Below are positions 33,227-36,426 of a stretch of 64,000 nucleotides of DNA, one piece after another. Origin of the DNA: Zeaxanthinibacter enoshimensis (GTDB taxonomy: Bacteria > Bacteroidota > Bacteroidia > Flavobacteriales > Flavobacteriaceae); assembly GCF_004362865.1 (NCBI RefSeq), contig NZ_SNYI01000001.1, positions 124,001-188,000 of the forward strand, written 5' to 3'. Below the pieces are notes generated by a model, which saw nothing but the letters and a program-made list of their open reading frames with translations, searched no databases and was not told where the DNA came from. Position numbers and translations under genes: made by a program. The number at the start of each line of letters is the position of its first letter. The first letter of the stretch is position 1.

Positions 33227-33257
33227 TTTGTAATTCAACTTAATAGTTGTACATTTG
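33227..33257 (+). promoter_or_regulatory. Promoter of rplM-rpsI (complete -33/-7 match)
   Basis: TTTG (33227-33230), 19-nt spacer, TACATTTG (33250-33257), an exact consensus match. The predicted start is near 33264, at a small hairpin CCCG-CTAAA-CGGG (33261-33273), leaving a leader of about 42 nt. Confidence 0.85.
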
Positions 33258-33305: not shown

Positions 33306-33761
33306 GTGGATACATTAAGCTACAAGACAGTTTCGGCCAATAAAGCCACAGTAGACAAGCAATGGTTGTTGGTGGATGCCGAAGGACAGACGCTAGGAAG
33401 GTTAGCTTCCAAAGTGGCTAAGTTACTCAGGGGAAAACACAAGCCTAATTTCACCCCTCACGTGGATTGTGGTGACAATGTTATCGTGATCAACGCTGAG
33501 AAAATAGAAATGACAGGGAACAAGTGGACCGAGAAGGTTTACCTGCGTTACACAGGATATCCTGGTGGGCAGCGTTCTCAGACAGCCCAGGAGTTGTTGG
33601 AAAAGAAGCCTGAGGCGGTTATCGAGAGAGCCGTCAAGGGAATGCTTCCTAAGAACAAATTAGGAGCAGATCTTTTCAGGAACCTGAAAGTGTATGTCGG
33701 TGCTGAACACCAGCAAGAAGCTCAAAAACCAACTGCAATTAACTTAAACGACCTTAAATAA
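33306..33761 (+). CDS. rplM: 50S ribosomal protein L13
   Basis: A 151-residue L13 with the family signatures [24 protein letters not shown] and the C-terminal [20 protein letters not shown]. The start is GTG (MDTLSYKT); no in-frame ATG upstream or close downstream preserves the family N-terminus. The start follows the A/T-rich leader without a Shine-Dalgarno site. It overlaps rpsI by one base (TAATG). Confidence 0.97.
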
Positions 33762-34147
33762 TGGACGTGATTCATAAAATCGGTAGAAGAAAGACAGCCG
33801 TTGCCCGTGTATACCTGTCTGAAGGTAAAGGTAACATCACCATCAATAAAAAGGATCTTGCTGAGTATTTCCCAACTGCTACACTGCAGTACAAGGTTAC
33901 ACAGCCATTTACACTGACCGGAACTGATGATACTTTTGATGTTAAGGTGAACGTATACGGAGGTGGAATAACAGGACAGGCGGAAGCTGTAAGACTTGCC
34001 CTTTCACGTGCACTTTGTGAACTGGATGCTGAACACAGGGGAACCCTGAAGCCGGAAGGTCTTCTGACCCGTGATCCAAGAATGGTAGAACGTAAGAAAT
34101 TCGGACAGAAGAAAGCCCGTAAGAAATTCCAGTTCTCTAAACGTTAA
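33761..34147 (+). CDS. rpsI: 30S ribosomal protein S9
   Basis: A 128-residue S9: N-terminal IGRRKTAVARVYL, GGGITGQAEAVRLALSRAL in the middle and the basic C-terminus KKFGQKKARKKFQFSKR, which reaches the P site tRNA. It is translationally coupled to rplM (stop and start share a base) and followed by a terminator. Confidence 0.97.
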   Translation: MDVIHKIGRRKTAVARVYLSEGKGNITINKKDLAEYFPTATLQYKVTQPFTLTGTDDTFDVKVNVYGGGITGQAEAVRLALSRALCELDAEHRGTLKPEGLLTRDPRMVERKKFGQKKARKKFQFSKR

Positions 34148-34155
34148 GAATCAAC

Positions 34156-34187
34156 TTCGCCGGTTTACCGGCGAATTCTTATTTTAT
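34156..34187 (+). terminator. Terminator after rplM-rpsI
   Basis: Stem TTCGCCGG / CCGGCGAA with loop TTTA followed by TTCTTATTTTAT, starting 9 bp after the rpsI stop. The T-tract is interrupted, so read-through into rpsB is possible. Confidence 0.75.
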
Positions 34188-34211
34188 ATTAATAACCCAA
34201 GTTCATTGAAA

Positions 34212-34381
34212 GTCTACTCCCCTGAAACGGGAGAGACATCAAGGCATCCTGATCAGCAAACCTGCACCCCTCCCGGGGCGCATCTGCACATCAGGATTCC
34301 CTTAGTTTAGCATCTAAATGCTCAAGGCATCCCCCAGGGATACCACTTGGGCATTGCTAATTCAACGGAACGTAAACTAAG
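34212..34381 (+). ncRNA. Structured rpsB leader RNA (three hairpins)
   Basis: Three consecutive strong hairpins fill the space between the rpsI terminator and rpsB. Hairpin 1 (34212-34237): GTCT-A-CTCCC with GGGAG-AGAC, loop CTGAAAC. Hairpin 2 (34246-34297): ATCCTGAT with ATCAGGAT, enclosing GCACCCC/GGGGCGC. Hairpin 3 (34301-34381): outer CTTAGTTTA with TAAACTAAG, middle AATGCTCAAG with CTTGGGCATT, inner ATCCC-CCA-GGGAT. The outer stem ends 9 nt before the rpsB ATG, so it could control ribosome access. This resembles a ribosomal-protein leader; I do not recognise a named family and no TAnnTTTG promoter is seen in it. Confidence 0.65.
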
Positions 34382-34390
34382 TACATTAAA

Positions 34391-35533
34391 ATGGCTAAAA
34401 AAGCTGAAGTAAAAGAATTACTAGAAGCAGGTGTGCATTTCGGCCACCTGACCCGGAAATGGAATCCAAACATGGCTCCTTACATCTACATGGAGCGTAA
34501 CGGGATCCACGTCATCAACCTTTACAAGACTGTTGCAAAACTGGACGAAGCTAACGAAGCACTTCGCAAGATTGCTGCTTCCGGCAGGAAGATCCTTTTT
34601 GTTGCAACAAAGAAACAAGCTAAAGACATCGTTGCCGATAAGGTAGCAGAAGTAAACATGCCATACATCACCGAAAGGTGGCCAGGTGGGATGCTGACTA
34701 ACTTTGTCACTATCCGTAAGGCTGTAAAGAAAATGGCATCTATTGACCGTATGAAAAAAGACGGTACTTTTAATACCCTGTCAAAGAAAGAACGTCTGCA
34801 GGTAGACCGTCTGCGTGCTAAGTTAGAAAAGAACTTAGGATCTATCGCAGATATGACCCGTCTGCCAGGTGCACTGTTCATCGTGGATACCATGCGTGAG
34901 CACATTGCGGTGAAGGAAGCTCAGAAACTGAACATCCCGATTTTCGCTATGGTGGATACCAACTCTGATCCACGTCCTATCGATTACGTTATCCCGGCTA
35001 ATGATGATGCTTCCAAGTCTATCGAAGTGATCATGAGCGAAGTTACCAAGGCAGTTGCCGAAGGACTTGCCGAGAGAAAATCTGAAAAGCAGGGAGATAA
35101 TGAAGGTGACGATAACGAGCAGACAAAAGCAGCTACTCCAAAGAAAAAGAAAGTAGTTACTGAAGCTCCTGAAGTTGCAAAGACCGAGAAAGAACCAGAA
35201 GCAGCTAAGCGTACCAAGACTATCGAAGAGGCGCCGGTTGTTGAGGAGAAAGCTCCAAAAGCAAAGAAAGAAGAGGCTAAAGCTGACGATCTTACCAAGA
35301 TTGAAGGAATTGGACCAAAAGCAGCTGAGGCACTTGTTAACGCAGGTATCAGCAGCTATGCTAAACTGGCCGATTCTGATGCTGACTCCGTTAAGGAGAT
35401 CCTGACCGAAGCCAGCTCTAACCTGGCTCACCTTGACCCGGGATCATGGGCCAAGCAGGCTAAGATGGCTGCAGATGGTAAGTGGGACGAGCTGAAGGAA
35501 TGGCAAGACCAGGCCAAAGGTGGCGTTGAGTAA
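34391..35533 (+). CDS. rpsB: 30S ribosomal protein S2 with long C-terminal extension
   Basis: A 380-residue S2. Residues 1-230 are the normal S2 (LLEAGVHFGHLTRKWNPNM, ERWPGGMLTNF, IPIFAMVDTNSDP). Residues about 235-295 are a charged Lys/Glu/Ala linker, and 299-380 carry a helix-hairpin-helix module (DDLTKIEGIGPKAAEAL) ending in SWAKQA and a tail. Standard S2 is about 230-260 residues. The module resembles the C-terminus of ActC in this window. It is preceded by the structured leader and followed by tsf after 65 bp. Confidence 0.97.
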   Translation: MAKKAEVKELLEAGVHFGHLTRKWNPNMAPYIYMERNGIHVINLYKTVAKLDEANEALRKIAASGRKILFVATKKQAKDIVADKVAEVNMPYITERWPGGMLTNFVTIRKAVKKMASIDRMKKDGTFNTLSKKERLQVDRLRAKLEKNLGSIADMTRLPGALFIVDTMREHIAVKEAQKLNIPIFAMVDTNSDPRPIDYVIPANDDASKSIEVIMSEVTKAVAEGLAERKSEKQGDNEGDDNEQTKAATPKKKKVVTEAPEVAKTEKEPEAAKRTKTIEEAPVVEEKAPKAKKEEAKADDLTKIEGIGPKAAEALVNAGISSYAKLADSDADSVKEILTEASSNLAHLDPGSWAKQAKMAADGKWDELKEWQDQAKGGVE

Positions 35534-35598: not shown

Positions 35599-36426
35599 AT
35601 GATGGTAAAAGTTACCGCTTCAGAAGTCAATAAATTAAGAAAAACTACCGGTGCAGGTATGATGGATTGTAAAAATGCATTGGTAGAAGCCGAAGGTGAT
35701 TTTGATAAGGCAATAGAAATCCTTCGTAAGAAAGGACAGAAAGTTGCTGCCAAGAGAGCTGACCGCGAGTCTTCAGAAGGTGCAGCCATTGCTAAAGTAA
35801 ATGGCGATAACACGAAAGGGATCATTATCTCCCTGAACTGTGAAACTGATTTCGTAGCTAAGAACGACTCATTCGTGACCTTAGCAAATGATCTTGCTGA
35901 CCTGGCATTGTCTTTTGATAACAAAGAGGCATTCCTTGAGGCAGATTTCAACGGGATCTCTGTACAGGATAAACTGACAGAGCAGACCGGTGTGATCGGT
36001 GAGAAGATCGAGATCGGAAGTTTCAGAACACTGGAAGCTCCTTTCGTAGGATCTTACATCCACGCAGGGAACAAGATTGCTACCCTGGTAGGTTTATCTG
36101 CCAATGTTGACGGTGCTGCAGATGCTGCTAAAGATGTAGCAATGCAGGCTGCCGCCATGAACCCGGTAGCCCTTGACCAGGATGGTGTAGACCAGGAGGT
36201 CATTGAAAAAGAGATCGAGATCGCTAAAGACCAGTTAAGGCAAGAAGGAAAACCAGAGGAAATGCTTGACAAGATCGCACAAGGTAAACTTGGACGTTTC
36301 TTCAAGGACAACACCCTGGTAAACCAGGATTTCATCAAAGACAGTAAAATGAGCGTTGCTCAGTACGTTAAGTCTGTTAATTCAGATCTGAAAGTAACCG
36401 GATTTGAAAGAGTAGCCCTGGGATAA
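35599..36426 (+). CDS. tsf: Elongation factor Ts
   Basis: A 275-residue EF-Ts, the nucleotide exchange factor of EF-Tu. Signatures: N-terminal UBA-like domain with LRKTTGAGMMDCKNALVEA and the conserved core LNCETDFVAKNDSF. Two consecutive ATGs mark the start (35599 and 35602); the second gives the family N-terminus MVKVTASEV. It is in the usual rpsB-tsf order and ends at a strong terminator. Confidence 0.97.
   Translation: MMVKVTASEVNKLRKTTGAGMMDCKNALVEAEGDFDKAIEILRKKGQKVAAKRADRESSEGAAIAKVNGDNTKGIIISLNCETDFVAKNDSFVTLANDLADLALSFDNKEAFLEADFNGISVQDKLTEQTGVIGEKIEIGSFRTLEAPFVGSYIHAGNKIATLVGLSANVDGAADAAKDVAMQAAAMNPVALDQDGVDQEVIEKEIEIAKDQLRQEGKPEEMLDKIAQGKLGRFFKDNTLVNQDFIKDSKMSVAQYVKSVNSDLKVTGFERVALG

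Follow-up and report, generated by a model that had tools for sequence, protein, structure and literature searches.

A conserved RNA structure, made up of a hairpin (P3), an internal loop that is itself conserved and the outer stem around them, lies directly 5' of rpsB (which encodes ribosomal protein S2) in many members of the Flavobacteriales and Bacteroidales, and also in some further Bacteroidota of the class. In the DNA from Zeaxanthinibacter enoshimensis analysed here, a stretch of 64,000 nucleotides referred to as the window (G000:C1:124001-188000, from a genome of 3.34 Mb), this conserved unit spans positions 34301-34381, and the two hairpins on its 5' side are lineage-variable. By its conserved structure, its covariation and its consistent placement 5' of a ribosomal protein gene, the element is placed in the class of ribosomal protein leaders. 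It is a real leader, found here in Bacteroidota only and unlisted in Rfam 15, and S2 is most likely the protein that it serves. We consider it probable that it acts in cis as an autoregulatory leader controlling rpsB, with S2 as the ligand and the outer stem occluding the initiation region; tsf is probably controlled by the leader as well.

Matches to NCBIfam profiles gave the gene order rplM-rpsI-rpsB-tsf at the locus (Table 1). Of the S2 proteins compared, those of Eudoraea, Flagellimonas and Allomuricauda share 92-94% identity with the S2 encoded in the window. The latter has a long C-terminal extension, consisting of a Lys/Glu-rich linker and a domain (window 35080-35530), and the 'sunset' variant of S2 and extended L21 models are among its whole-protein matches under the cut-off. 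Upstream of rplM a TTG-N19-TACATTTG site is present that resembles a promoter of the Bacteroidota type, and one would expect the L13 leader published for Bacteroidia immediately 3' of this site. The terminator-like hairpin between rpsI and the leader may represent an attenuator, or a separator of rpsB-tsf transcription.

Table 1. Genes, flanking signals and RNA features at the rpsB locus (window coordinates)
Feature	Position	Strand	Basis
Promoter-like site TTG-N19-TACATTTG 5' of rplM, possible operon promoter	33228..33257	+	pattern scan
rplM (L13)	33306..33761	+	NCBIfam TIGR01066
rpsI (S9), stop codon 34145-34147	33761..34147	+	NCBIfam NF001099
Terminator/attenuator-like hairpin (34156-34175) with T-rich tail, between rpsI and leader	34156..34185	+	similar hairpins in family leaders
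Putative P1, 5' strand GUUCAUUGAA	34201..34210	+	MFE fold; strand conserved
P2 domain, two lineage-specific hairpins (34212-34237, 34243-34300)	34212..34300	+	fold, alignments
Outer (basal) stem, 5' strand CTTAGTTTA	34301..34309	+	fold, covariation
P3 hairpin with conserved GCATCTAAA loop strand	34310..34357	+	covariation, 99 sequences
Putative P1, 3' strand UUCAACGGAAC, containing the conserved RGAAN segment	34361..34371	+	MFE fold, alignment
Outer stem, 3' strand TAAACTAAG	34373..34381	+	fold, covariation
rpsB (S2), ATG at 34391; presumed regulated gene and ligand	34391..35533	+	NCBIfam TIGR01011
tsf (EF-Ts), co-regulation likely	35599..36426	+	NCBIfam TIGR00116

The region 34188-34400 (213 nt) has a minimum free energy (MFE) of -70.3 kcal/mol compared with -46.8 +/- 4.6 kcal/mol for 200 shuffles (z -5.1), none of which reached the native fold energy. 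An earlier note on this DNA had described three strong hairpins before rpsB, an outermost stem closing 9 nt before the ATG and a possible TAGCA/TGCTA rearrangement, and all of these were recovered: the hairpins are located at 34212-34237, at 34243-34300 and within 34310-34357, CTTAGTTTA can pair with TAAACTAAG to end 9 nt short of the rpsB start codon, and the TAGCA/TGCTA alternative is used by the MFE fold. The stems thus stand as described, and to them is added a pairing that the note had not listed, GUUC.UUGAA (34201-34210) with UUCAA..GAAC (34361-34371), here called P1, which also forms part of the MFE fold. P1 with the extended P3 (-70.3 kcal/mol) and the outer stem with P3 (-68.7 kcal/mol) are competing nested folds, the outer-stem fold of the window being the weaker by 1.6 kcal/mol. 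The same note had seen no promoter inside the leader and had recognised no named family; two simple pattern scans of the rpsI-rpsB gap (sigma-70 and TTG-N-TANNTTTG) indeed yielded no full promoter, the sole promoter-like match being one loose -7-like TAGTTTAG at 34303, and Rfam 15 contains no family for the element at gathering or at lax thresholds.

P3 and the outer stem are both supported by compensatory changes. In an alignment of 99 sequences (A7; 100 loci picked to thin near-duplicates, L121 being unmatched) that was fitted, as was alignment A5, to the model structure, 91.8% of the cells were paired compared with 31-45% in slid controls. Two-sided changes occurred at 17 of 21 pairs, with 392 such cells relative to 131 +/- 9 in shuffles, in counts that ignore the tree connecting these related sequences, and for none of five measures did any of 500 shuffles reach the observed value. 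A false hit, L094, was retained in both alignments, and the paired share is still 91.8% without it. The pairs of P3 vary freely, one of them occurring as GC (31), UA (21), CG (18) and AU (8). Considered alone, the outer stem was 88.1% paired compared with 78.9 +/- 0.9% in shuffles, with two-sided changes in 76 cells relative to 34 +/- 4; for four of the five measures at most one of 500 shuffles reached the observed value, and further pair types were not above shuffles (209/500). Five of its eight pairs are nearly invariant, pair 4-176 was found as AU (43), UA (24), CG (5) and GC (4), and pair 8-170 as UA (93) and CG (5) with no one-sided standard pairs. Moreover, in some GC-rich genomes GGGUUCA/UGAACCC replaces the UUAGUUUA/UAAACUAA of the window.

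The element is widespread among relatives. A DNA search, whose query included the rpsI and rpsB ends, matched 49 of 60 relatives, and in 35 of the 60 the match ranges extend beyond query position 200, into the 3' part of the leader; a near-invariant core, GUUUAGCAUCYAAA ... UUGC ... RGAACGUAAAC, was present in the 30 loci read. Whole-genome searches at E 0.001 with R1, a covariance model that comprises the outer stem and P3, matched at least 51 of 396 class genomes and at least 117 of 246 order genomes, with a single match each except for two genomes with two. A broader model (R2), applied to a phylum sample of 394 genomes, matched at least 45; these counts are lower bounds, since only few first-look candidates were scored per genome. 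Among the loci examined, an rpsB start lies downstream in 114 of 116, the exceptions being a contig end (L082) and L094, a false hit 5' of a thioredoxin-like gene (false hits of the model at E 0.001 thus numbering one or more). Likewise, a pattern scan of named genomes gave at least 119 stretches, and among the matches listed 79 of 80 precede rpsB (77 rpsB starts by script and, by eye, the S2 of L283 and L287; L337 is a contig end). The titles of the matches listed are all from Bacteroidota, including Bacteroides, Prevotella, Parabacteroides, Chryseobacterium, Capnocytophaga, Myroides, Tenacibaculum, a Chitinophaga MAG and others, bar one Chlorobiota MAG. Neither E. coli nor any of 40 genomes representing 24 families of other classes gave a model match even at E 10, and viral contigs contained no match to the leader pattern.

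The check by covariation that the earlier note had proposed came out in its favour, as the same stems with compensatory changes were found in homologous rpsI-rpsB regions; the retention of the stems wherever rpsB stays in place held in part. Among 22 genomes that had given no match before, rpsB could be found in 20, and a direct R2 search of these 20 loci returned E <0.001 in 10, weak matches in two (L400, L401) and none in eight, three of which are in genomes of 300-600 kb. In a set of 97 class genomes, with mostly one or two representatives of each family, R2 matched the rpsB region in 17 (13 at E <0.001, four at E 0.0018-0.019); the rpsI-rpsB gap is 3-101 nt in the 69 measurable cases among the 80 unmatched genomes, and the gaps of matching genomes start at 87 nt.

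The distance from the GUAAAC 3' strand to the start codon was 0-45 nt with a median of 10 in the 111 of 114 loci in which both anchors were found, and it was within 30 nt in 105. Nine loci have this strand immediately next to the ATG (0-1 nt), and four of the nine allow an extension of the stem over two to three start-codon bases. S2 is favoured as the ligand because the element is constantly placed directly before rpsB. In gammaproteobacteria S2 is reported to be an autogenous repressor of rpsB-tsf (PMC10931766). Bacteroidia ribosomes, as reported, do not recognise Shine-Dalgarno (SD) sequences, and the rpsB of F. johnsoniae is given as lacking one (PMC9976891); what the outer stem would thus conceal when closed is the region of initiation as such. 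However, rpsB in certain Bacteroidia is reported to carry an SD (PMC9976891), so that occlusion of an SD-less site would not be the whole story. We propose that S2 in surplus over 16S rRNA would bind the core formed by P3 and the internal loop and would stabilise the outer stem in its shut form, which in some members of the window's family may form a pseudoknot together with P1. The shut stem would then keep the 30S subunit off the rpsB initiation region and lower rpsB translation, and tsf translation would fall in turn through coupling or mRNA decay. Speaking against this reading, the primary sequence of the leader shows no mimicry of 16S rRNA from the same genome, the local score being 11 with a shuffle mean of 12.

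That these stems are a functionless by-product of a terminator and a GC-rich spacer is hardly credible: the GC-rich hairpins 1 and 2, which show no sequence conservation in the alignments, would suit such an origin, but the occurrence in more than 100 relatives at a constant position and the compensatory changes do not, and the covariation contradicts it. An element working without a protein ligand is unlikely, whether it would serve translation efficiency, would affect mRNA processing or stability (as a standby site, or as an RNase barrier after the terminator-like hairpin of rpsI) or would switch its fold with temperature or transcription. Two nested folds only 1.6 kcal/mol apart would lend themselves to a switch, and a terminator-like hairpin is indeed present 5' of the leader in the window's group (in all 11 family leaders with GTTC[A/C]TTGA in the gap, its sequence varying). 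This hairpin, however, is not general, as it was found in 15 of the 51 family leaders without GTTC[A/C]TTGA in the gap (such hairpins arise in shuffles at a rate of 0.6%), and the unpaired loop letters GUUUAGYAUCYAAA and GAANGUAAAC are strongly conserved, which suggests a specific binding surface.

Such a surface could be occupied by another product of the operon or by a partner, i.e. by EF-Ts, L13 or S9, or by S1 together with S2, although we regard this as rather improbable. The operon has the gene order rplM-rpsI-rpsB-tsf, a Bacteroidia L13 leader is tabulated as regulating rplM, rpsI and rpsB (Eckert et al., 2020; PMC7247131), and effective repression by S2 in E. coli is reported to require S1 (PMC10931766). 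Yet in the loci examined the element adjoins rpsB, not rplM or tsf, in some lineages the start codon of rpsB lies within reach of its stem, and in the gene order of the table of Eckert et al. rplM comes first among the regulated genes (PMC7247131). The L13 leader shares operon, phylum and kind with the present element, but the latter lies between rpsI and rpsB and not 5' of rplM; any overlap between the two was judged from the published table and text. Similarly, the S4, S15 and S16 leaders of Flavobacteria or Bacteroidia listed by Eckert et al. (2020) are of the same kind and phylum but belong to other genes, and no S2 leader appears among the 20 new motifs as tabulated there (PMC7247131). 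In the literature searched no Bacteroidota S2 leader is described, an earlier description, e.g. in supplementary data, being possible. An autoregulatory leader with S2 as the ligand is the reading that we favour.

The nearest counterpart by position is the rpsB motif (t44, RF00127), which is likewise located directly 5' of rpsB and which the earlier note did not bring up. As described by Meyer et al. (2009), this motif consists of P1, P2 and P3 with a pseudoknot from J2/3 to a 3' extension after P1, with reported representatives in Proteobacteria, Cyanobacteria and Firmicutes (PMC2704228). The possible strand order in the window would equal its P1-P2-J2/3-P3-P1' layout, and the E. coli leader contains complementary strands of the rpsB-motif kind, but the conserved letters of the Bacteroidota leader differ. 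The t44 model was over its cut-off in none of 60 order genomes, compared with an E. coli control that was over it; it gave one weak match elsewhere in a single genome (G044; E 0.32) and nothing in the tested leader loci. Conversely, the Bacteroidota model had no hit in E. coli, so that neither model finds the other. On present tests the Bacteroidota leader is thus not a member of t44/the rpsB motif, although it may well work like one.

Since the outer stem encloses the loop in which the 3' strand of P1 is situated, P1 and the outer stem together would constitute a pseudoknot. In those leaders of the family that fall outside the window's group, GUU-N-U[U/C]GUUG can pair with CAAC[A/G]GAAC. A first test covered 39 of 62 family leaders, leaving out nine from the window's group and 14 others (four without a visible P1), and gave T-A 31, C-G 6 and T-G 2 at the middle pair (Fisher p 8.6e-6, ignoring the tree), with whole-strand shuffles equalling the observed pairing in 6 of 1000. 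For all 53 leaders outside the window's group the middle pair was T-A 44, C-G 6, T-G 2 and A-G 1, and the paired fraction was 0.870 versus 0.850, one of 1000 shuffles being as high. A contiguous P1 helix was above shuffles (p 0.05) in 11 of 52 sister-group leaders and in none of nine leaders of the window's group; outside the window's family it was not above chance in 23 of 25 leaders (the two exceptions being L103 and L111), by eye none was seen in those families, whose outer stem is simply nested. These sequence comparisons indicate that P1 likely exists in the sister group, and the MFE fold and the conserved GUUCAUUGAA strand suggest it for the window itself. The common core is the outer stem with P3, and in the window's family P1 may cross the outer stem in the layout of the published proteobacterial rpsB motif. 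That a single, ancient S2-binding pseudoknot fold is represented by both the Bacteroidota leader and the rpsB motif, its letters having diverged past recognition, with the outer stem/pseudoknot helix as the oldest part and P1 gained or lost by lineage, is a quite doubtful proposition, which we rated lower because P1 is unsupported in the window's own group.

Feedback by S2 in E. coli is a classic but poorly understood circuit. A widespread and compact S2 leader would make this circuit accessible to study in a new model, in bacteria related to Flavobacterium, Bacteroides and Prevotella, which mostly initiate without Shine-Dalgarno pairing, and would fill a gap in the RNA-family annotation of gut and marine bacteria. 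In addition, it would allow the convergence of leaders for the same protein on one layout to be tested, and the alignment supplies a usable covariance model as well as specific bases for mutation. If an ancient common fold were true, it would be among the few ribosomal protein leaders common to several phyla, and it would show the S2 switch working without Shine-Dalgarno pairing.

Several minor observations concern individual loci. The match titled Chlorobiota bacterium (L318) has an S2 that is 83% identical to that of a Bacteroidales MAG, in a comparison that did not include S2 of other classes, and a mislabelled bin is possible. In L401, L055, L061 and L121 the tip of P3 carries long AT-rich or repeat-like inserts with the core strands intact, as in the long AT-rich P3 insert between normal core strands at 1360-1465 of L401; because of such inserts in several family genomes, the AAGGC/CCACTT part of P3 is not universal. 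The leaderless loci L170, L171, L179, L226, L230 and L231 have a Shine-Dalgarno sequence of the GGAGG type in a short rpsI-rpsB gap, as though initiation led by an SD accompanied the loss or absence of the leader.
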